DNA of 64,000 nucleotides, taken from Mesoterricola sediminis (lineage in GTDB: Bacteria; Acidobacteriota; Holophagae; Holophagales; Holophagaceae). Made by a program: the position numbers and the translations under genes. This document shows positions 26,261 through 36,267 of the stretch, piece after piece. Below the pieces are notes generated by a model. The model was given only the letters and a program-made list of their open reading frames with translations. It made no database searches and was not told the origin of the DNA. Location: positions 3,765,001 to 3,829,000 of the forward strand of contig NZ_AP027081.1 of NCBI RefSeq assembly GCF_030295425.1. The letters run 5' to 3'. Positions within the stretch are counted from its first letter, which is position 1, and the number at the start of each line of letters is the position of its first letter.

Positions 26261-27031
26261 ATGGAAAAAGAGAATTTGATCACTAGCCGGGCGAATCCCA
26301 GATACCGGGACCTCCGCGACCGGATCTCCCAGGGGGGTGCCCGCCGGTCCCACACCCTGCTGCTGGGCGCCAAGCTCATCGAGGCCTGGGCGGCGGCCCC
26401 CCACGCCTCCCGGCTCGAACCGGAACTGTGGCTGCGCCTGGAGGGGGCCGCGCCCCACCCCCTGGAGGCGGGGCTCGGCCTGCCCGCCCTCGTCCTCGGC
26501 GAGACCCTGATGCGGGACCTGGCGGACGCGGGGAGCCCCCCGGACCAGGCCCTCCTGGCCCGCCTCCGGCCGGACCCCGAGGGGCCCCTTCCCGACCGGG
26601 TCATCGTCCCCTGGGGGATCCAGGACCCCGGCAACCTGGGGGCCATCCTGCGCAGCGCCGCCGCCTTCGGCTTCGGGGAGGCCCTCCTGGGCCCCGGCTG
26701 CGCCGACCCCTTCGCCCCCCGGGCCCTGCGCGGCTCCATGGGGGCCGCCTTCCTCATGCCCCTCCGCCGCGTCCCGCGGCTGGAGCCCGACGGCGCGGCC
26801 TGGCTCGCCCTGGACGGCGGCGAGGGCGCCCTGCCCCTGGCCGAAGCCCCCCTGGAGGGCCCCCTGCGGCTCCTCGTGGGCAACGAGGGGCACGGCTTCC
26901 GGGGCGCGGACCTGCCCCCGGGCCTCATCCGGGTGGCCATCCCCACCCGGGGGGTGGAGAGCCTGAACGCCGCCGTCGCCGCGGGCATCGCCTGCCACGA
27001 GACGGCCCGCCGCCGGGGGTTCCGGCCGTGA
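26261..27031 (+). CDS. TrmH/SpoU-family RNA 2'-O-methyltransferase
   Basis: The 256-residue protein fits the SPOUT class that methylates ribose 2'-OH in tRNA or rRNA. It has a short N-terminal substrate-binding region (SRANPRYRDLRDR) and the three knot motifs: IQDPGNLGAILRSAAAFGF, PLRLLVGNEGHGFRG and IPTRGVESLNAAVAAGI. The usual Asn and Arg of motif I and the Glu of motif II are present. The ATG at 26261 is preferred over an upstream frame that runs antisense to the OPT gene. It overlaps lnt (GTGA). The substrate position cannot be told. Confidence 0.85.
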   Translation: MEKENLITSRANPRYRDLRDRISQGGARRSHTLLLGAKLIEAWAAAPHASRLEPELWLRLEGAAPHPLEAGLGLPALVLGETLMRDLADAGSPPDQALLARLRPDPEGPLPDRVIVPWGIQDPGNLGAILRSAAAFGFGEALLGPGCADPFAPRALRGSMGAAFLMPLRRVPRLEPDGAAWLALDGGEGALPLAEAPLEGPLRLLVGNEGHGFRGADLPPGLIRVAIPTRGVESLNAAVAAGIACHETARRRGFRP

Positions 27032-28524
27032 GGGGCCTCCGCGACGCGGCCCTGGTGGCCCTGGCCTACCTGCTGGCGAACCGCTTTCCCGCGCCCTCCG
27101 GATGGGGCTACGCCGAGGCCGCGGGCGCCTTCCTCCTGCCCGCGGCGGCCTTCGCGGCCCTGGGCCGGGGCCGCCGGGCGGGATGGATCTTCCTGGGGTT
27201 CCTGGCCGGCACCGCCGGGGGGTTCCACTGGGTGCCCGAGGTGATGCGCAGCAAGGGGGGCCTGCCCTGGGCCGGGGCCCTGGGCGCCGGGTTCCTCTTC
27301 TGGGGCTACGAGGCCGCGGGGCTCCTGGCGGTCACCCTCCTGGGGCGGCTCGCCCTGCGCCGGGGCCCCGCCGCCGGCGCCCTCGCGGCGGCCGCCGGCA
27401 TCGTCCTGTGGCAGGCCTTCGCGTTCCACATCTACGATTTCAGCTTCGGGGCCTCCCTGGGCGGAGTGCCCTGGATGGCCCGGGGCGCCGCCTTCCTGGG
27501 CACCCACGGGCTGGCCGCCCTCCTCTGGGGCCTGGGCGCCTGGAGCGGGTTCCAGGCCGCCGCGGGCGCCCCCTGGCGGCGGCGCCTCACGGCCCCCTGC
27601 CTCCTCCTGGCCCTCCTGGCCGGGCTCGGCGGGGCGTGGCGCCTGCTGCCCCGCGGCCCGGAGCACCGCCTCGACGTGGTGATGGTGCAGCCGGGGTATC
27701 CCCCCGGCGTCCGGCTCCCCCTCATGGAGGCGGACATGTGGCGCCGCACCGACGCGGCCCTCCGCGCCGCGTCCCTGCCCCGTCCGGAGCGGGCCACCCT
27801 GGTGCTCTGGCCCGAGAGCGCCGTCCTCGGCCGCGACGACCGGCTGGCCTCCGACCGCCTCCGGGAGGAGGCCCGCCGGCGCGGAGTGGCCTGGCTCTAC
27901 GGCACCGAGGGCGGCCCCTTCAACCTGGTGCGGGGCGAGGCCGCGGGCCGGCCCGCCTTCGTCCAGGCCAAGGTCCTCCCCATGCCCTTCGGCGAGCGCA
28001 TGCCCGGGCCCGCCCCCGTGCGGGCCTGGCTCGACGCCCAGCTGGGATTCTATTCCGCCGAACCCGGCGACCTGGGCCCCGGCTCCAGCTTCGCCTTCCC
28101 CGCCCCCGGCGGCCTCCTGAAGGCCCACCCCCTCATCTGCAGCGAGGCCCTGGTGGAGACCCGCGTGGCCCGCGGCCTGGCCCTGGCCGGCGGCGATCTC
28201 CTCACCAACCACACCAACGACGGCTGGTTCGACCGGAGCCCCGCCACCGACCTCCACGCGGCCCAGGTCCGCCTGCGGGCGGTGGAGACCGGCCTCCCCC
28301 TCCTCCGGGCCACCCTGACCGGCAAGTCGGGCCTTTTCCGGGCCGACGGGAGCTGGGAGCTCTGGGGCGGCCCCATGACCGAAGCCGCCTACGCCTTCCC
28401 CCTGGCGTGGCGCCCTGTGGCCACCCCGGCCCGGGCGCCCTGGCTCGTCCCGGCCCTCCTCGCCCTCCTCGGCGCCGCCCTGGCCGCGGCCCTGGTCCTC
28501 CCGGCGCGCGGACCCGCCCGCTGA
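27028..28524 (+). CDS. lnt: apolipoprotein N-acyltransferase
   Basis: Lnt adds the third acyl chain to lipoproteins in the inner membrane. The 498-residue protein has an N-terminal multi-span region (about six to eight spans to residue 215) and a nitrilase-like periplasmic domain. The catalytic triad positions are E263 (LWPESAV), K315 (VQAKVLPMPFGE) and C371 (PLICSEALVE), agreeing in spacing with E. coli E267/K335/C387. LLTNHTNDGWFDRSPATDLH is also conserved. Start is the GTG overlapping the previous TGA. It links with the Lol-type genes and several lipoproteins in this window. Confidence 0.93.
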   Translation: MRGLRDAALVALAYLLANRFPAPSGWGYAEAAGAFLLPAAAFAALGRGRRAGWIFLGFLAGTAGGFHWVPEVMRSKGGLPWAGALGAGFLFWGYEAAGLLAVTLLGRLALRRGPAAGALAAAAGIVLWQAFAFHIYDFSFGASLGGVPWMARGAAFLGTHGLAALLWGLGAWSGFQAAAGAPWRRRLTAPCLLLALLAGLGGAWRLLPRGPEHRLDVVMVQPGYPPGVRLPLMEADMWRRTDAALRAASLPRPERATLVLWPESAVLGRDDRLASDRLREEARRRGVAWLYGTEGGPFNLVRGEAAGRPAFVQAKVLPMPFGERMPGPAPVRAWLDAQLGFYSAEPGDLGPGSSFAFPAPGGLLKAHPLICSEALVETRVARGLALAGGDLLTNHTNDGWFDRSPATDLHAAQVRLRAVETGLPLLRATLTGKSGLFRADGSWELWGGPMTEAAYAFPLAWRPVATPARAPWLVPALLALLGAALAAALVLPARGPAR

Positions 28525-28539
28525 TGGCAGAATGGCAGC

Positions 28540-29175
28540 ATGGACACCCCGGTCTGGTACCAAGCCCCCCTCTTCCGCACCCTGGCGGCCCCCCAGCGTG
28601 AGCGCCTCGCGCGCATCGTGACCACCCGGACCCTCGAACCCGAGGCCATGCTGTTCATGGAGCAGGATCCCTGCACCGGCTTCTACGTCCTCGTCGAGGG
28701 GGCGATCCAGCTCACCCGGAGCAGTTCCGTTCCCGGGGCCCACCCCACCCTGGCCGTGGTCACCCCCGTCAACAGCTTCGCCGAGGCTGCGCTCTTCGGA
28801 GGCGAGGCCTTCCCGGCCACGGCCACGGCCGTGAAGCCCTCCCGGGTCGTCCACTTCCCCAAGGCGGCCTTCCTCGGCGCCATGCGGGAGGACCCGGACC
28901 TGGCCCTGGCCATCATCCACGCCCAGACCCTCTGGCTCCGGCGCCTGATCCAGAAGGTGGAGCAGCTGACGGCCTCCGACAGCTCGGACCGCCTCCGGTC
29001 CTGGGTGGAGGAATATGTGCCCCGGGGGGGGAGCTTCGTGCTTCCCGTCACAAAGAAGACGCTGGCCGCCCAGCTCGGGATGACCCCCGAGACCCTGTCC
29101 CGGGGACTGCGATCCATGCAGGACGAGGGTCTGCTGGAAGTCAAGGGCCGGGTGCTGCGCCGGGGCCGGTCCTAG
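28540..29175 (+). CDS. Crp/Fnr-family transcription regulator
   Basis: The 211-residue regulator has an N-terminal cyclic-nucleotide-binding-like beta barrel (about 12-125: FYVLVEGAIQLTR, FAEAALFGG) and a long dimer helix (HAQTLWLRRLIQKVEQ). A C-terminal winged helix follows, with TKKTLAAQLGMTPETLSRGL as the recognition region. The cAMP-contact Arg-Ser pattern in the barrel is not evident and no Fnr-type Cys cluster is present, so the ligand is unknown. It lies 15 bases after lnt. The protein is of full length. Confidence 0.88.
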   Translation: MDTPVWYQAPLFRTLAAPQRERLARIVTTRTLEPEAMLFMEQDPCTGFYVLVEGAIQLTRSSSVPGAHPTLAVVTPVNSFAEAALFGGEAFPATATAVKPSRVVHFPKAAFLGAMREDPDLALAIIHAQTLWLRRLIQKVEQLTASDSSDRLRSWVEEYVPRGGSFVLPVTKKTLAAQLGMTPETLSRGLRSMQDEGLLEVKGRVLRRGRS

Positions 29176-29194
29176 GCCCCCTGCATTTTTTTTA

Positions 29195-29223
29195 ATTGAA
29201 TTTTAATCCGACAAACCTATCCT
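29195..29223 (+). promoter_or_regulatory. promoter and putative operator of the Rrf2-type gene
   Basis: TTGAAT at 29196-29201 and TATCCT at 29218-29223 are 16 bases apart. The -35 is embedded in the AT-rich pseudo-palindrome ATTGAATTTTAAT at 29195-29207, of the form ATTNAANTTNAAT. Such a site is where an autoregulating Rrf2 protein would bind. Confidence 0.5.
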
Positions 29224-29244
29224 GAATTAGACCTTGGATTCGAT

Positions 29245-29691
29245 ATGCTTTTCTCGACTGCCACCGGATACGCACTCAGGGCCCTGGCGGCCATGCCAGA
29301 GGATGGCACGTACAGCCTCGCCAAGGACCTGGCCTCGCACCTCAGCCTGCCTGGCCCCTACCTGGCCAAGATCCTCCAGTCCCTGGCCCAGGAGGGCATC
29401 CTCCATTCGGTGCGCGGGCCCCGGGGCGGCTTCCGCCTGGCCAGGCCGGCCCACCGCATCACCGTGGGCGAGGTCGTCGAGGCCCTCGAGGGCATCGAGA
29501 CGATGTCGGGCTGCGTGATGGGCTTCGCCCAGTGCGACAACCACGACAACCCCTGCCCCCTCCACAAGGCCTGGAACGAGGTCAAGGCGCACATGGACGC
29601 GTCCATGACCCACGTGACCATCCGGGACCTGCAGATCCTGGACCTGCAGCACCACCGGGAGCACCGGGAACTGGCGACGGTCCGCCGCTAA
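29245..29691 (+). CDS. Rrf2-family transcription regulator, probably Fe-S sensing
   Basis: The 148-residue protein has the Rrf2 winged helix (GYALRALAAMP, ASHLSLPGPYLAKILQ with the LxxxGPRGGF wing, here VRGPRGGFRLARP). The cluster-ligand region is GCVMGFAQC followed by PCPLH, with C90, C97, C104 and H107. Cys104 and His107 fall exactly where E. coli IscR has ligands, while the other two cysteines are one or two residues shifted. It may sense Fe-S supply, NO or redox state. The upstream promoter overlaps a palindrome, suggesting autorepression. The targets are unknown, but the adjacent electron-transfer locus is a natural candidate. Confidence 0.88.
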   Translation: MLFSTATGYALRALAAMPEDGTYSLAKDLASHLSLPGPYLAKILQSLAQEGILHSVRGPRGGFRLARPAHRITVGEVVEALEGIETMSGCVMGFAQCDNHDNPCPLHKAWNEVKAHMDASMTHVTIRDLQILDLQHHREHRELATVRR

Positions 29692-29848: not shown

Positions 29849-30229
29849 CTACTTCTTCGGGGCGGGCTTGGCGGGGGCCTTCAGGTCCTGGCCGCAGACG
29901 ATGAGGCCGCGGACGGCGTCGTAGTCCTTCCGCTGGAAGCCGCTGCGGGTGATGAGTTCCGCATTGGTCTTGTAGGGGCGGTCGCGGAGGATGCGGTCGA
30001 CCAGGGTGGGGGTCATGCCCTTCACCTTCAGGATCTGCTCCCGGCTCGCCTTGTTGATGTCCACCCGCTTCTCGTAGGGGATCTTCTTGGGCGCCTTGCG
30101 GGGCTTCGCCTGCTTGGTGGTTTTCTTGTGCACCGGCGCCCGGGGAGCCTCCTCCTCCTGGGCGATGGCGGGCGCGGCGGCGAAGAGGGCGAGGGTGGCG
30201 GCGAGGAGGAGCTGGGGGAATCGGGTCAT
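29849..30229 (-). CDS. secreted helix-hairpin-helix protein, ComEA-like
   Basis: The 126-residue protein starts with a signal peptide (MTRFPQLLLAATLALFAAAP, cleavage near AIAQ). A Lys/Pro-rich basic linker follows, then a helix-hairpin-helix domain: VDINKASREQILKVKGMTP and a second hairpin with LITRSGFQRKDYD. The INxAsxexLxxlpGi pattern is that of ComEA-type exported DNA-binding domains. It lies 116 bases after the decaheme cytochrome gene in the same direction and could be the last gene of that operon. The role (external DNA binding or a structural domain in the electron-transfer apparatus) is not known. A Cys in the tail (VCGQD) is unpaired. Confidence 0.8.
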   Translation of the reverse strand: MTRFPQLLLAATLALFAAAPAIAQEEEAPRAPVHKKTTKQAKPRKAPKKIPYEKRVDINKASREQILKVKGMTPTLVDRILRDRPYKTNAELITRSGFQRKDYDAVRGLIVCGQDLKAPAKPAPKK

Positions 30230-30345
30230 GCGGGATCTCCGTCACGATGGTGCCTGAAAAAGATAACCCGGATGCGGGGCACCCGGGTCATCCCTGTTCG
30301 TGGATCAACGCGCCGGGGCGGGCAGGGCCCGCCCCGGCCTGGACA

Positions 30346-33048
30346 TCACTTGAAGGTCATGTGGACCGTGCGGACGTCGGCGGTCTTGCCGGAGGCGTGG
30401 CACAGGGCGCACTGCTCGACCTTCAGGAGCGCGGTGGCGCGGGCTTCGTAGAAGGCGCCGCCGTTCGTCTTGTAGTGGGCGATGGCGACGGGGGTGTCGT
30501 GGCAGCCGGCGCAGGCGGCGACCATCGGGGAGTTCACCAGCGTGGTGCTGGCGGCATCCGTGTAGTTGGTCGTGGCGGCGGTGGCCAGGTTCGTGGAGTA
30601 GCCGCTGCCGTAGGCGGTGTTGGCGGCCACGAAGGGGCTGTAGTAGGTGCCGGGGACGGTCTCGGTGCCGGTCACGATCGCGTTGATCGTGGCAGGGGTC
30701 GTGCCGGTGGCCACGGTGCTCCACAGCAGGTTGGGCAGGGCGTTGGCGCTGGCGGTGTTCTGGAAGTCATAGGACCCCGGAACGTGGCAGGCTTCGCAGT
30801 TGTTCAGGATGGCGGGGTACTCGACCTGCCAGTAGTAGTCGCCGGCGGAGACTTCCCAGCTGAACTTGTTGACCCGCTTGCCGGCGCCGTGGATGGCGTG
30901 GATGGCGTCCTTGATGTTCACGGACCAGCCGCTGTTGACGCGGTTCACGTTGTGGCAGAACACGCAGGTGGGGGCGTCGTTGCGCTGGCCGGCGTGGTAG
31001 ACCTTCTCGGTGAACACGCCCAGGGCGGCGTGGCACTCGTTGCACTTGGCGTTGCTGACGATGGCACGGCGAGCGGCCACCTGGGTGGACAGCAGGGTGC
31101 TGGAGGTGGCGCCCATCTTGTAGACGTTGGGCGCGGGGACGGACAGGCCGCCCTGCCGCTTGCCCTCGACGTTGTAGGCGTAGCCGGCAACGTTGGTCTG
31201 GGTCAGGGGCTGGGTGGAGGTGAGGCCGTAGGTGTAGCCGATGCCGCCGGTGACCATGGTGGCGGTGGTGGGGATCTTCACCCCGGTCATGGTGAGGGTG
31301 TAGTAGCCGTTGGTGTCGGGGCCGGTGAGGGTGCCCGCGGCGGTGCCGGTGGCGGTGCCGTTCCAGACGTTCTTGAAGTAGGTGCTGGCGGTGGCGTTGT
31401 AGTCGGCGGGGGTGGCGATGCCGTCCTGCGGCAGGGCCATGGCGACGTAGAAGCTGGGGCCGCCCACGAAGTTGTCCCAGAACTCGGTCTTGCCGGTGGC
31501 GCTGTAGGTGTTGAAGTCAGCGCGCTGGCCGTCCTGGAGGAAGCGGAACACGAACACCGGCTGGCTGCTGGCGTTCAGGGTGAAGCTCTTCAGGTCCCAG
31601 GTGGGCTTGATGGCGCCGGCGGGCAGGTTGCTGGTGATGCCGGCCACGTAGGACGCGTTGGTGTTGGCGTTGGTGCCGCCCAGCCAGGTGTTGTTGGGGT
31701 TGGGGGGAACGACGGCCACGTGGTAGACGGTGGCGATGTCGCTGGCGCTGTGGCACTGGGAGCAGTACTTGTCGTCGGAGGCGGAGCCGCCGGGGTGGTT
31801 CGTGCCGAGGACCCAGTCGATGCTGTCGTGGCAGGCGCCGCAGGCGTTACGGCCGGGGTTGGTCTTCCAGCGGTCGCCCTGGGCGGACTTGGAGCCGTCG
31901 TGGCACTGCACGCAGTTCCGGTGGTCCATCGGGTAGGTGGTCTCGTTGAAGGCGATGCCGGCGTAGTTGTAGCCGGTCTTGCTCAGGATCTCGCCGGCGT
32001 GCAGCCGGTGGATGAACTGGGGCATGTTGCCCACGGCCTGGTTCGCGATCTTGTTGGTGCTGCCGGTGTAGCCGCCGGTGGTGGTGGTCGCCTCGGCGTT
32101 CCCGTACTTCCGCTGGTCGGTGTGGCAGATCGAGCAGTAGTTGGGATCCCAGCGGCTGCCGCCATGGAAGGTGCTCAGGCGGGTGTGGCAGTCGTTGCAG
32201 GCCTGGGTGGTGGTGATGGTGCGGCCCGCGTCGGTCGCCGTGATGGCGGCGCCGGTCTTGGGGATGAAGTCGTAGGTGGCGTTGACGGGAACCTTGAGGT
32301 TCACGGCGCTCTGGGCGGACGTGGAGCCGTCGGCGGTGTTGCTGCCGGTGCCGCGGAAGGCGCCCGCGATCTGCAGGGAGACGCGGTGGGTCAGGGTGTC
32401 GACGTAGGTCACGTCGCCGAGGTCGGCGCGGACGTTGTTGCCGGTGTAGGTGGCGGCGTCGAGGATGCCCTGGGCCTTGGTGATGTCGCGGCGGAACGTG
32501 TAGACGTAGCTGCCGTCGCCGTTGTCAACCAGGGTGCCGATGCTGTCGGTGGTGGGCTTGGTCGGGCCGGCGGCCGTGGTGGTCGTCGGGTTGGACGTGA
32601 CGATGTAGTTCATCCACTGGCCGCTGCCGTCGGCGCCCACCACCAGCTTGGCGATGGAGAGGGCGACGTTGGGGTAGCTGGCGTAGAGGGCCGTGGCGGA
32701 CTTGGAGGTCCAGCCCAGGCCGGTCACGGGGGTGCCGTTGGCGTCCGTCACCTTGAAGGTCACGACGGGCTGGCCGTTCACGACGGCGGCCTTGGTGATC
32801 GTGCCGGTGAGGGCGAGGTTGGCCCACTGGTCCTGGGTCATGTTGGCGACGTTGGCGGTCGGGGTGGTCCCGTTGGTGCCGTTCGTGCCGTTGGTCCCGT
32901 TGGTGCCGTTGGTGCCGTTGCTGCCGTTCTGGCCGGCGGGGCCGGCGGCGCCGGTATCACCCTTCTCACCACGGCAGCCGACGAGGGCGAGGGCGATGAC
33001 CGCGCTGGCGGCCAGGGCGCCCAACCTCTTCAGAGGTTTCATTTCCAT
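30346..33048 (-). CDS. decaheme OmcA/MtrC-type outer-surface cytochrome c lipoprotein
   Basis: This 900-residue protein is predicted to be the outer-surface terminal cytochrome of an electron conduit. A strong ribosome site (GGAGG, 8 bases away) selects the ATG at 33048. The lipobox LVGC puts the acylated Cys at residue 25. Next come 12 Gly-X-Y triplets (about residues 27-62: GEK, GDT, GAA, GPA, GQN, GSN, five GTN, GTT), a collagen-like stalk. Ten CxxCH motifs follow: CNDCH, CSICH, CVQCH, CGACH, CSQCH, CNECH, CVFCH, CEACH, CAGCH and CALCH, grouped five and five around a central beta-rich domain. This matches the OmcA/MtrC family. The protein ends shortly after the last heme. Confidence 0.93.
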   Translation of the reverse strand: MEMKPLKRLGALAASAVIALALVGCRGEKGDTGAAGPAGQNGSNGTNGTNGTNGTNGTNGTTPTANVANMTQDQWANLALTGTITKAAVVNGQPVVTFKVTDANGTPVTGLGWTSKSATALYASYPNVALSIAKLVVGADGSGQWMNYIVTSNPTTTTAAGPTKPTTDSIGTLVDNGDGSYVYTFRRDITKAQGILDAATYTGNNVRADLGDVTYVDTLTHRVSLQIAGAFRGTGSNTADGSTSAQSAVNLKVPVNATYDFIPKTGAAITATDAGRTITTTQACNDCHTRLSTFHGGSRWDPNYCSICHTDQRKYGNAEATTTTGGYTGSTNKIANQAVGNMPQFIHRLHAGEILSKTGYNYAGIAFNETTYPMDHRNCVQCHDGSKSAQGDRWKTNPGRNACGACHDSIDWVLGTNHPGGSASDDKYCSQCHSASDIATVYHVAVVPPNPNNTWLGGTNANTNASYVAGITSNLPAGAIKPTWDLKSFTLNASSQPVFVFRFLQDGQRADFNTYSATGKTEFWDNFVGGPSFYVAMALPQDGIATPADYNATASTYFKNVWNGTATGTAAGTLTGPDTNGYYTLTMTGVKIPTTATMVTGGIGYTYGLTSTQPLTQTNVAGYAYNVEGKRQGGLSVPAPNVYKMGATSSTLLSTQVAARRAIVSNAKCNECHAALGVFTEKVYHAGQRNDAPTCVFCHNVNRVNSGWSVNIKDAIHAIHGAGKRVNKFSWEVSAGDYYWQVEYPAILNNCEACHVPGSYDFQNTASANALPNLLWSTVATGTTPATINAIVTGTETVPGTYYSPFVAANTAYGSGYSTNLATAATTNYTDAASTTLVNSPMVAACAGCHDTPVAIAHYKTNGGAFYEARATALLKVEQCALCHASGKTADVRTVHMTFK
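32872..32929 (-). repeat. 9-bp tandem repeat encoding the Gly-Thr-Asn stalk
   Basis: Imperfect copies of GTTGGTGCC (plus strand; the minus reading gives GGCACCAAC, Gly-Thr-Asn) run for about six units inside the decaheme cytochrome gene. The units encode the GTN part of its collagen-like stalk. Such arrays change length by slippage, so stalk length may differ between strains. Confidence 0.8.
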
Positions 33049-33192
33049 GCTTTTTCCTCCTTGTTGAAAACGCATGATTGTTTCAATTGCGATGGAACTG
33101 CAGATCGGGATGTCGGGGATCATTCAAGTCGGGCACCTCCCTTGGGGGCTCAGCGTGCGATGGGGTTCGCAGGGTTGTTGGAAGCCGTCGGA

Positions 33193-33837
33193 CTAGAGAT
33201 TCGTGGTGTGGCAGAGGGTGCCGTTGAAGCAGCCCGGGGTGGTGCCCGCTGCCGCGGGGGGTTTGGGGGTGATGGAGGAGTGGGCGCCCAGGGCGTGGCA
33301 CTTGGCGCATTCGGCCGCATTGCTGGGGTCGGTGCGGTCGTGGTTCGGGTTGCTGGGCGAGACGCCGCTGACCCAGGGCTTCGCGGGGTGCGGGGCCGTG
33401 GTGTGGCAGGCGGTGCAGGCGGGGGTGATGCCCACCGGGTTCGTGTACTGGTCCCCGTGGCAGCGGGTGCAGGCCACGAAGCTGGTGCGGAGCAGCCCGG
33501 TCAGCCCGTTGTCCTTGGGCTGCGCGCCGAGGCGCCCGTGCTGGCTGGCCTGGGCCCAGTCGGCGGGGTGGTGGGGGCCGTCGGGGTGGTGGCAGCCGAA
33601 GCAGCTGACCTTGGAGGTGCCGCCGGCCTGGGTCTTGTCCGTGGTGGAGCCGTGGCAGGGCTTGCAGCTGTCGGGGTTCATCAGGTAGTCCTTCCAGTGG
33701 GAGGACTGCCAGGTGGCGGGGTGCTGGCCGGTGGTCGGGTTCAGGGACGGCGCGTTGGTGGCGCTGGTGGAACAGCCCCAGAAGACCAGGGCCGCCGCCG
33801 CCGTGAGGAGGGTTTTGGCAATCAGACGCTGGTTCAT
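33193..33837 (-). CDS. pentaheme cytochrome c lipoprotein with a sixth atypical motif
   Basis: The 214-residue protein (ATG at 33837, GAGG-type ribosome site upstream) has a lipobox VFWGC near residue 22. It carries five CxxCH heme sites: CKPCH, CFGCH, CTRCH, CTACH and CAKCH. Near the C-terminus CFNGTLCH gives a CX5CH arrangement, which could bind a sixth heme if a suitable ligase acts. The rest is rich in Pro and His, with HHPDGPHHPADW offering distal ligands. It is encoded between the periplasmic five-heme gene and the decaheme gene on the same strand. It probably passes electrons at the outer membrane. No exact homologue is named. Confidence 0.85.
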   Translation of the reverse strand: MNQRLIAKTLLTAAAALVFWGCSTSATNAPSLNPTTGQHPATWQSSHWKDYLMNPDSCKPCHGSTTDKTQAGGTSKVSCFGCHHPDGPHHPADWAQASQHGRLGAQPKDNGLTGLLRTSFVACTRCHGDQYTNPVGITPACTACHTTAPHPAKPWVSGVSPSNPNHDRTDPSNAAECAKCHALGAHSSITPKPPAAAGTTPGCFNGTLCHTTNL

Positions 33838-33847
33838 GACGGGACCT

Positions 33848-34315
33848 CTACCGGTGGCAAGCACTGCACTTCTCGTTGTTGGCGCGGCCATGGCACTTGT
33901 AGCAGCCCGTGGGATCGATCTTCCCGTCGATGCGGTGCATGGTCAGGTAGCCGCCGCGGTGCGGGGAGACCCGGTCGGGACGGTTGCCCAGCTTGGTGGA
34001 GGCGGGCATGACGGTCTTGCCGCCGTGGCAGTCGGCGCAGAAGGACTGGGCGTGGCAGGTGGCGCACGTCGTGGCGTCCTGGGTGGCCTGGACCTTGTGG
34101 TCCTTGGCGAAGGCGGCCGTGTGGTTCAGGGACGCGTAGGTCTTCTGCGTGCTCTTCACCACTTCGGTGCCGTGGCACTCGGAGCAGGTGGGGCGCCCGT
34201 TGGGGAGCTCCTGGGGGTGGGTGCGGGCGAAGCTGGCTTCGGGAGAGACGAGGGCGCAGGCCGACATGATCCCGAGGCCGAGGGCGGCCGCGAGGAGGAG
34301 GATCTTCTTGTGCAT
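33848..34315 (-). CDS. five-heme cytochrome c, putative periplasmic partner of the porin
   Basis: The 155-residue product has an N-terminal export signal with an IMSAC lipobox-like Cys at residue 20. It carries five CxxCH motifs: CSECH, CATCH, CADCH, CYKCH and CSACH. Spare histidines (NHTAAFAKDHK, SPHRGGYLTMH) could supply distal ligands. The ATG shares one base with the porin stop (TGATG), so the two are made together. In known porin-cytochrome complexes the periplasmic side is a multiheme cytochrome encoded beside the barrel, and this one fits. Whether it is lipid anchored or a free periplasmic protein cannot be settled from the sequence. Confidence 0.85.
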   Translation of the reverse strand: MHKKILLLAAALGLGIMSACALVSPEASFARTHPQELPNGRPTCSECHGTEVVKSTQKTYASLNHTAAFAKDHKVQATQDATTCATCHAQSFCADCHGGKTVMPASTKLGNRPDRVSPHRGGYLTMHRIDGKIDPTGCYKCHGRANNEKCSACHR

Positions 34316-35703
34316 CACTTGCCTCCCTTGAGGGCGAAGCCGAAGCGGTACTCGGCCCGGAGGAGGCCCATGACCTGCTTCTTGTAGAGGGCGGTGTCCT
34401 CGACGCTCAGATCCCCGGAGACCTTGAAGGACTTGGCGGCCTGGTAGCCCACGGAGCCCACGATGGCGGACTGGATGGCCTTGCCGTTGAGGGCGGGGTT
34501 GAGGGCGGCGTCCGTGAAGTGCAGCCGGATGCCGTCGAGGCTGGCCGAGAAGGGACCCTTCTCGTACATCACCCAGCCGCGCATCTCGCTGTGGCTGAGG
34601 CTGTAGGCCGGGGTGACGGAGTCGACGAGCGTCACGCGGAAGGCGACGGTCTTGTGGTAGGCGCCGCCGAACACGAGGTTGGCAGCGGGCACGTTCAGGC
34701 GGCCCTCGAGGCCGGCCCGGGTGGTGTACCCGTAGACTTCGCGCTCCGTGTGGCGCAGGTCCGCCGTCAGGGTGAGGGCGGAGACCGGCGCGTAGGTGAC
34801 GGCGCCGCTGGTGGCGGTGTAGGTGCCCCGCTCGTTCTGGTTGAAGAGGGAGGGGAGCGTGCCGCCGGCGTAGTAGGAGTAGAAGTTGCGCTGGACGTAG
34901 CCGCCGGTGGCGGAGAGGTTCTCGAGGATGTGGAAGGTGCCCCGGAATTCCTGCTCGGCGACGCGCTTGCGGTCCTCGCCGGGGGCGGCGGCGGGATGGT
35001 TGGCCACGTCGAACACGGTGCGGCCCGTGAAGTCGAAGAAGGCCACCGGCGCCAGGGTCAGGTCGACGCCCACCTGGCGGCGGGAGTAGTCGACGGTGCG
35101 GGGGGTGGCCACGTCCAGGTCCTTGGCCGCGTTGGAGCCGTCCTGGAGGTAGGAGACGCCCAGCTCGCCCATGCGGGGGATCCGGTAGGACAGGCGGGCA
35201 CCGGCCAGGAAGTTCTTCTGGAAGGTGATGTCGGCCTGGGGCAGGACGCCGTAGTTCTTGTAGATGACGGGAATGCCGCCGAAGGCCGAGATGGCGAAGC
35301 CGCCCTTGAGGTCCGTGCGGGCGTAGACGCCGTCCAGCTGCTCCACGCCCGTGGTGCCGAAGGCGGTGATGCGGCCGGCCTTGATCTGGCCGTTGGCCTG
35401 GGCGAAGTCGTACTGGAGGTACCCGTAGGTGAGGTCCCCGGCGGACTTCCCGCCGAGGGCGGACTGGTCCTTCAGGTCGGTGCGGCCCCAGCCGTACAGA
35501 TGGAGGGAGAGGGCGTCCGTCCCCAGCTTCGTCGCGTCGATGCCGAGGAACTCGGTGACGGGGGCGTAGGTGGCCTTGTCGAAGCCGGGGGTGTCCGTCT
35601 TCCACATCTGGGCCATCGTGGTGCTGTACACGTTGACGTCCTGGGCGAACGCCGCCGCGGGGACCAGGGCGGCCAGGAGGGCCAGGTGAATTCGCTGTTT
35701 CAT
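34315..35703 (-). CDS. outer-membrane beta-barrel of a porin-cytochrome electron conduit
   Basis: The 462-residue protein (ATG at 35703) has a signal peptide (MKQRIHLALLAALVPAAAFA). The remainder consists of alternating amphipathic strands of about ten residues with short turns, for example LSLHLYGWGRTDL, GDLTYGYLQYDFA, VGVDLTLAPVAFFDF and ALTLTADLRHTERE. This is the pattern of a large outer-membrane barrel of perhaps 20 or more strands. It is the first gene before three multiheme cytochromes, matching the gene logic of MtrCAB and Geobacter Pcc systems, although direct similarity to MtrB is not visible by eye. It would insulate the electron path through the membrane. The C-terminus ends FGFALKGGK, without the usual final Phe. 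Confidence 0.75.
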   Translation of the reverse strand: MKQRIHLALLAALVPAAAFAQDVNVYSTTMAQMWKTDTPGFDKATYAPVTEFLGIDATKLGTDALSLHLYGWGRTDLKDQSALGGKSAGDLTYGYLQYDFAQANGQIKAGRITAFGTTGVEQLDGVYARTDLKGGFAISAFGGIPVIYKNYGVLPQADITFQKNFLAGARLSYRIPRMGELGVSYLQDGSNAAKDLDVATPRTVDYSRRQVGVDLTLAPVAFFDFTGRTVFDVANHPAAAPGEDRKRVAEQEFRGTFHILENLSATGGYVQRNFYSYYAGGTLPSLFNQNERGTYTATSGAVTYAPVSALTLTADLRHTEREVYGYTTRAGLEGRLNVPAANLVFGGAYHKTVAFRVTLVDSVTPAYSLSHSEMRGWVMYEKGPFSASLDGIRLHFTDAALNPALNGKAIQSAIVGSVGYQAAKSFKVSGDLSVEDTALYKKQVMGLLRAEYRFGFALKGGK

Positions 35704-36267
35704 GACTGGCCTCCAGCCGCAATCCGCCGCAACGGAGCGGTCGGCAAGACCATGGGTCGCGTGCGCATCGAGGGCCTCCTCCACGGGAAATGAAAGGTGA
35801 GATTTCCGATCAAAAATGGGAACGCGGAAAACCAGACGTCTGGCTCCGAAGATCTGTTTTGAAGAATGCTAGTAAGCCTGCCGGGGGGCCGCAAGCCACG
35901 AATAAATCCGACGAATTCGCTCTGCTATCGCGAAATCGGGCCCTTTTCCCCCGCCCTCGCGACGTTTCAAATCGGACATTCATCTCCGACATAAAACAGA
36001 TTCTATGGTCCTTATTATGAAATTTCCGGCACGTTGCGTGCGGGGGAGCGACCAATGATCCAGTTTCCAAAAGGTTCCCGGGAATCTCAAAAAAATTTTC
36101 ATGCTCCGAAACCCACGGATACCGAGTCTCTGGATCCGGCGCCCGATCCAGGCTTCCCCTTGCGGGTCAGTCGGAAGCGGGGATTGATGTCCCAAAAAAA
36201 TCATATATAAAGTTTTTATTAAATTTCAGAACCCCGGGACCGAAATCCGCCGGTCGGGTGACCGCCG
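35704..36267. other. 564-base AT-rich intergenic region ahead of the electron-transfer operon
   Basis: No credible gene is present. GC falls markedly, especially at 36060-36230 where A/T runs such as AAAAAAATCATATATAAAG occur. The half nearest the porin gene holds a candidate promoter (35866-35894) and a perfect palindrome CCAGACGTCTGG at 35832-35843. The other half lies downstream of rlmH and shows no clear terminator. Regulation of the operon is probably encoded here. Confidence 0.6.
35832..35894 (-). promoter_or_regulatory. candidate promoter and palindromic operator of the porin-cytochrome operon
   Basis: On the minus strand TTGCGG (35894-35889) and TAGCAT (35871-35866) are 17 bases apart. 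Start of transcription would be near 35859, with a leader of about 155 bases. A perfect 12-bp palindrome, CCAGACGTCTGG (35832-35843), lies just after the predicted start, in a typical repressor position. Confidence 0.45.

Follow-up and report, generated by a model that had tools for sequence, protein, structure and literature searches.

A family-wide porin-cytochrome gene cluster in Mesoterricola sediminis, a candidate outer-membrane electron conduit combining a Pcc-type core with an OmcA/MtrC-family decahaem lipoprotein

Organization of the gene cluster

The 64-kb stretch of DNA analysed here (hereafter the window, to which all positions refer) sits in the complete 4.52-Mb chromosome of Mesoterricola sediminis. 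On its minus strand it carries five genes in the order barrel, pentahaem lipoprotein, second lipoprotein, decahaem lipoprotein and helix-hairpin-helix (HHH) protein (Table 1), and the series of porin and multihaem cytochromes described in the initial annotation was thereby confirmed. The same holds for its CXXCH counts of 5, 5 and 10, which make 20 motifs in these three frames; no further frame in the window contains two or more, and residue-shuffled controls had a mean of 0.01–0.05 and a maximum of 2. Each cysteine of the cluster's proteins could be assigned, and the best count from the sequence, including one atypical motif in the second lipoprotein, is 5 + 6 + 10 = 21 haems. Judged by its barrel, the genome possesses only one such cluster.

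The TGA of the barrel gene and the ATG of the pentahaem gene share one base, and the two genes are translationally coupled via this overlap. The pentahaem and hexahaem genes are separated by 10 nt, the hexahaem and decahaem genes by 144 nt with a good ribosome-binding site, and the decahaem and HHH genes by 116 nt. The long intergenic region upstream of the barrel holds a single weak sigma70-like match (CTGAAA-18-TATGAT at 36229–36200).

Table 1. Features of the cluster (window positions).
Feature	Position	Strand	Remarks
Upstream intergenic region, long	35704..36267	-	presumed operon promoter region
Outer-membrane beta-barrel, putative OmbB/ExtB/ExtE-like scaffold	34315..35703	-	462 aa, signal peptide, no cysteine
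Pentahaem lipoprotein, OmaB-N-terminus-like	33848..34315	-	155 aa, 5 CXXCH, lipobox
Hexahaem lipoprotein, putative relay (5 CXXCH + 1 CX5CH)	33193..33837	-	214 aa, lipobox Cys22
CX5CH atypical haem motif, CFNGTLCH	33208..33231	-	invariant in 15 Holophagaceae orthologues
OmcA/MtrC-family decahaem lipoprotein	30346..33048	-	900 aa; presumed cell-surface exit cytochrome
Collagen-like Gly-X-Y tract, 12 triplets	32863..32970	-	directly after lipidated Cys of decahaem
Two strong hairpins, second over U-run	30259..30338	-	probable transcription terminator after decahaem gene
Secreted helix-hairpin-helix protein (HHH_3, ComEA/PsbU-like)	29849..30229	-	126 aa, PF12836

The barrel and the pentahaem lipoprotein

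No Pfam or NCBIfam family matches the barrel. As the initial annotation had remarked, MtrB similarity is not visible: the protein does not match PF11854 or the NCBIfam MtrB models (TIGR03509), and a PF11854 search of the whole M. sediminis genome gave no match either. The AlphaFold2 (AF2) model (pLDDT 72.5) has about 22 strands, and its best matches in a PDB fold search are generic porins and receptors, including 22-strand TonB-dependent receptors, whose plug domain is similar in size to the pentahaem protein. No electron-conduit barrel is among these best matches; with generic barrels only returned, the lack of MtrB in the fold search carries no evidential weight.

The barrel family profile matches barrels adjoining multihaem cytochromes in Desulfuromonadales, and also picks up the barrel beside an ExtA-like dodecahaem gene, in a comparison that contained no named G. 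sulfurreducens Ext sequence. Searched against Geobacter genomes, the profiles further recover a barrel, an octahaem cytochrome and a ~760-aa multihaem lipoprotein in a row; this layout, present twice in one genome, corresponds to the published OmbB-OmaB-OmcB arrangement (PMC4245776). Against the OmbB-like alignment, hhalign gave 99.3% (E 1.7e-20, 396 columns) with the wide barrel alignment and 96.6% with the Holophagaceae alignment alone, and the homology spans the barrel length; the OmbB/OmaB reference set was picked by layout and homology, not by accession.

The pentahaem protein belongs to no Pfam or NCBIfam family, and its cytochrome c7 matches are sub-threshold only. Ten of its 11 cysteines lie in CXXCH motifs and the remaining one, Cys21, in a lipobox. 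Cys21 shows no variation among 19 Holophagaceae sequences and exceeds 90% conservation in a set of 52 sequences that spans two phyla; the protein is therefore a predicted lipoprotein, which overturns its earlier reading as non-lipidated. Exactly five non-motif histidines are invariant in the same 52 sequences, the number that bis-histidine ligation of five haems would call for. With the OmaB-like octahaem profile, hhalign yielded 99.5% (E 3.6e-22, 115 columns), as compared with E 4.9e-5 and 3.8e-8 for control multihaem profiles, and by this measure the pentahaem protein is a homologue of the OmaB-like octahaem over the first five haems of the latter. A lipid anchor on such a plug candidate is unusual, as OmaB-like proteins appear to be without a lipobox. 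In three Geobacteraceae/Desulfuromonadales relatives (L121:8001-8471, L126 and L129) the lipobox cysteine is lost, so the anchor is not strictly required.

The core of barrel and pentahaem protein is regarded as Pcc-type (porin-cytochrome), because both its layout and its profile homology point to the OmbB/OmaB-like pair; on the same comparisons it is the smallest version of such a core among the loci here. No solved structure of a sequence relative was found for either protein, and the AF2 model of the pentahaem protein, from which the haems are left out, is poor (pLDDT 66) and without a PDB match. A standard barrel-geometry estimate gives a 22-strand lumen of ~28 Å; a five-haem plug of 18 kDa would occupy it for ~36 Å of its length, roughly the membrane thickness. 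The pentahaem protein is a likely candidate for both barrel plug and periplasmic electron entry.

The hexahaem and decahaem lipoproteins

The second lipoprotein contains 13 cysteines, ten in CXXCH motifs, two in a CX5CH motif and one in the lipobox. The consensus C-[FY]-N-x-x-[LM]-C-H is invariant in 15/15 aligned Holophagaceae orthologues, so the additional "+1" motif of the initial annotation proved real as sequence, and six non-motif histidines are invariant in the same 15 sequences. Because of the invariant CX5CH motif and these six histidines, the protein probably holds six haems. Its domain recurs within 8–25-haem lipoproteins of relatives. In Desulfuromonadales proteins (L132:8449-12168, L133, L136, L138 and L210) the form C-[FLY]-N-x-x-x-CH occurs up to six times per protein, typically as CFNNTLCH. 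This recurrence suggests that CX5CH is a widespread atypical haem site; CX3-5CH motifs have earlier been proposed as haem sites (PMC4245776).

The decahaem protein matches NCBIfam TIGR03507 at 433 bits (cut-off 209.3) as well as Pfam PF22113 and PF22112, and its PDB relatives are MtrF, UndA and MtrC. Its 21 cysteines comprise 20 in ten CXXCH motifs and one in the lipobox, leaving none spare for disulfides, and there are 11 conserved non-motif histidines for the ten haems. A Gly-X-Y tract (7–13 triplets) comes after the lipobox cysteine in 21/21 full-length orthologues examined and is a possible stalk or trimerisation element.

The helix-hairpin-helix gene and neighbouring genes

The gap between the decahaem and HHH genes folds with a minimum free energy of −66.1 kcal/mol (z −4.87), and the second of its hairpins, a 17-bp stem, overlaps a U-run; a simple terminator scan misses these hairpins. 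Because a probable terminator hairpin intervenes, the HHH gene is probably outside the same uninterrupted transcript and may be a separate transcription unit. In most Holophagaceae loci whose flank is long enough, it trails the decahaem gene in the same orientation; it is absent from the Desulfuromonadales loci examined. The initial annotation had counted the HHH protein within the conduit series. Its place beside the cluster stands, whereas its literal reading as a member of the conduit operon is weakened by the hairpin, synteny notwithstanding; we treat it as a syntenic neighbour with a putative conduit role.

Beyond the HHH gene, an open reading frame at 26428–28524 encodes a carbon-nitrogen hydrolase domain that we take to resemble apolipoprotein N-acyltransferase (Lnt), near this cluster of three lipoproteins. 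Crp/Fnr-type and Rrf2-type regulators lie convergently at 28540–29691, downstream of the cluster, and both remain linked to it in three genus-mates (L034, L035 and L039).

Distribution of the cluster

Within Holophagaceae the order barrel, pentahaem, hexahaem, decahaem is found in all loci with enough sequence, in at least nine genera. Linkage in relatives, on which the initial annotation had made its proposal depend, therefore extends across the family, and a barrel without a pentahaem neighbour occurs only where the contig ends. The pentahaem gene is followed by the hexahaem lipoprotein or by a fused 10- to 30-haem form, and then usually by one to three decahaem genes; outer modules are swapped in a few loci. 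Variant clusters in some Holophagaceae (L056:5430-8924, L101:8503-12006, L104:8501-11998 and L106) have a 25–30-haem protein in place of the hexahaem protein and are devoid of the decahaem gene. In Geothrix-type loci (L045, L046, L047, L049 and L069–L072) the decahaem gene is repeated in tandem, in two or three copies, and the HHH gene lies between or after them.

Among 247 sampled Acidobacteriota genomes, Holophagaceae alone gave strong pentahaem matches (20/23 members sampled). Weak matches (E ~2e-12) were seen in another Acidobacteriota family, f29 (G217:C15 and G410:C39). Outside the phylum, the barrel and pentahaem pair is widespread in Geobacteraceae/Desulfuromonadales: a genome-collection scan with the pentahaem alignment recovered it in Geobacter argillaceus (61%), Geomonas, Oryzomonas and other Desulfuromonadales, where a larger multihaem lipoprotein lies downstream of the pair. 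The two genes are immediate neighbours in essentially every locus of the two phyla. The suggestion of a distinct conduit lineage in this phylum is therefore not upheld, given this distribution and the OmbB/OmaB homology, even though strong matches within the Acidobacteriota sample come from Holophagaceae alone.

A tree of the barrels unites all Holophagaceae in a single clade (support 100) adjoining one of the two G. argillaceus copies; the tree is midpoint rooted only, and as such gives no direction of transfer between Geobacteraceae and Holophagaceae. Some contigs labelled Deltaproteobacteria or Bacillota carry Holophagaceae-like (L068 and L083) or G. argillaceus-like (L102) clusters, labels that are probably due to bin mislabelling.

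Proposed electron route and alternative explanations

With a probability of roughly 0.8, we read the cluster as a trans-outer-membrane electron conduit of the Pcc kind, in which the complex, the current and its direction are inferred from sequence. The MtrCAB/Pcc logic put forward in the initial annotation gains support from the OmbB/OmaB-like homology and from the TIGR03507 decahaem. Upstream partners are encoded elsewhere in the genome: a CbcL-like inner-membrane protein that combines nine CXXCH motifs with a cytochrome b561-like domain, a flavocytochrome, and several small cytochromes of the c3/c7 type; multihaem genes were listed by degenerate CXXCH patterns, by which widely spaced motifs may be missed. 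Quinol would be oxidised at the inner membrane by the CbcL-like protein, and small periplasmic c-type cytochromes would pass the electrons to the lipid-anchored pentahaem protein, the likely periplasmic contact because no ExtA-like dodecahaem is present. Inside the 22-strand barrel, in the place of OmaB in OmbB, the pentahaem protein would act as an insulated five-haem wire, from which the hexahaem lipoprotein would relay electrons to the surface decahaem, held off the membrane by its Gly-X-Y stalk. From the decahaem, electrons could then pass to Fe(III)/Mn(IV) minerals, humics, electrodes or partner cells. How the proteins dock, which way the lipoproteins face, and the direction and acceptor of the flow are all predictions here, and Fe(III) reduction has been reported for Mesoterricola (PMC13064192). 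A more specific version is offered tentatively: a minimal, all-lipoprotein conduit in which the OmaB-core pentahaem alone would be the whole wire in the 22-strand barrel, with no dedicated soluble periplasmic cytochrome, and would lead by way of the CX5CH hexahaem relay to a possibly trimeric Mtr-family decahaem on a collagen-like stalk, making a natural chimera of Pcc core and Mtr exit.

The placement of the pentahaem protein is the point at which an alternative deserves most attention. It carries a lipobox, and the ExtC/ExtF proteins are predicted on the outer face (PMC6148476), so that it might sit there while a different, unlinked periplasmic cytochrome enters the barrel. In some Desulfuromonadales an ExtA-like dodecahaem gene indeed precedes the barrel and pentahaem genes, and linkage of ExtA to the other genes is not obligatory (PMC6148476). 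Yet an ExtA-like dodecahaem profile (built from L175/L177/L181) had no match in the genomes of M. sediminis and three other Holophagaceae (G000, G001, G035 and G066). The pentahaem protein, moreover, corresponds by homology to the first five haems in octahaems of the OmaB type, and it is conserved more strongly than the cluster's other cytochromes, which is not the pattern of exposed components. An outer-face position is accordingly judged unlikely.

The conduit could also run inward and supply the periplasm with electrons drawn from Fe(II), corroding metal, electrodes or syntrophic partners. Conduits of the porin-cytochrome type can work either way, and homologues of MtrAB/Pio function in Fe(II) oxidation. 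Quinone enzymes like CbcL/MtoC are found for both directions of flow (PMC6295460), and exchange with cable bacteria has been suggested (PMC11748539). Large surface OmcA/MtrC decahaems are, however, typical of outward, mineral-reducing systems, and relatives in the genus and family are reported Fe(III) reducers (PMC13064192), which makes inward flow quite improbable. That the barrel is a small-molecule porin beside independent surface and periplasmic cytochromes, with no trans-membrane wire, would agree with its fold matches to ordinary substrate porins and receptors and with its lack of MtrB similarity, but we give this explanation very little credence: barrel and pentahaem genes adjoin in essentially every locus of two phyla and part in Holophagaceae only at contig ends, their stop and start codons overlap in the window, and both proteins are homologous to the OmbB/OmaB-like pair.

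Significance

The Holophagaceae (Geothrix, Holophaga and Mesoterricola) include iron reducers, and no dissected outer-membrane electron route for the family was found in the open literature searched. The cluster provides a defined, family-wide candidate for such a route, with a homology link to the Pcc and Ext conduits of Geobacter. A conduit of ExtB/E type had already been reported in Holophaga (PMC7399161; PMC11748539). What is new is the exact composition (a lipidated five-haem protein, a six-haem protein with CX5CH and an OmcA/MtrC decahaem with a Gly-X-Y stalk), its family-wide conservation with outer-module swapping, the OmbB/OmaB link, and the correction that the lineage is not specific to this phylum. 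The pair of pentahaem protein and barrel, the smallest core seen and without a solved sequence relative, is an attractive structural target. The pairing of a Pcc-type core with an Mtr-type decahaem suggests that different conduit families can exchange their exit cytochromes.

Comparison with known conduits

On the sequence comparisons above, the cluster is filed as a core of Pcc type whose OmaB-like cytochrome is lipidated and shortened, joined by a hexahaem relay and by an OmcA/MtrC decahaem that stands on a collagen-like stalk. Shewanella MtrCAB shares the overall logic and an exit decahaem of the MtrC/OmcA family. It differs in that a decahaem MtrA has no counterpart here, the small cytochromes linked to the barrel carrying 5 and 5+1 haem motifs, and in that the barrel has about 22 strands, whereas MtrB has 26. 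MtrCAB is present in other Acidobacteria (PMC8805035). For Holophaga itself, one MtrB-like and one ExtB/E-family porin-cytochrome cluster were reported in 2020 (PMC7399161), and a Holophaga living in sediment with cable bacteria expresses homologues of extEFG (PMC11748539).

With ExtABCD/ExtEFG (PMC6148476) the cluster shares a pentahaem lipoprotein (ExtC/ExtF) after the barrel and variable outer cytochromes, but it ends in an OmcA/MtrC decahaem lipoprotein. Its identification as ExtABCD, suggested by the upstream dodecahaem gene in L175/L176/L177/L181, was rejected, there being no ExtA-like protein in this genome; in some Geobacter genomes, too, the dodecahaem gene occurs by itself. An identification as extEFG by a linked Hox hydrogenase found no convincing case in the loci compared.

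Geobacter OmbB-OmaB-OmcB (PMC4245776) has the same order of barrel, small plug-like cytochrome and large surface lipoprotein. There OmaB is a soluble octahaem and the exit an OmcB-like dodecahaem, whereas here the plug candidate has five haems and a lipobox, the hexahaem lipoprotein is extra, and the exit is a ten-haem protein of the OmcA/MtrC family. Other Desulfuromonadales conduits, such as those of Geobacter argillaceus (L090), Oryzomonas (L133) and Geomonas (L122), are alike in having an orthologous barrel and pentahaem core, with 45–61% identity in the pentahaem protein, and a c5lip-type domain. They differ in that their outer lipoprotein is mostly a fused 8–24-haem form, OmcA/MtrC decahaems are rare, and the HHH gene is absent.
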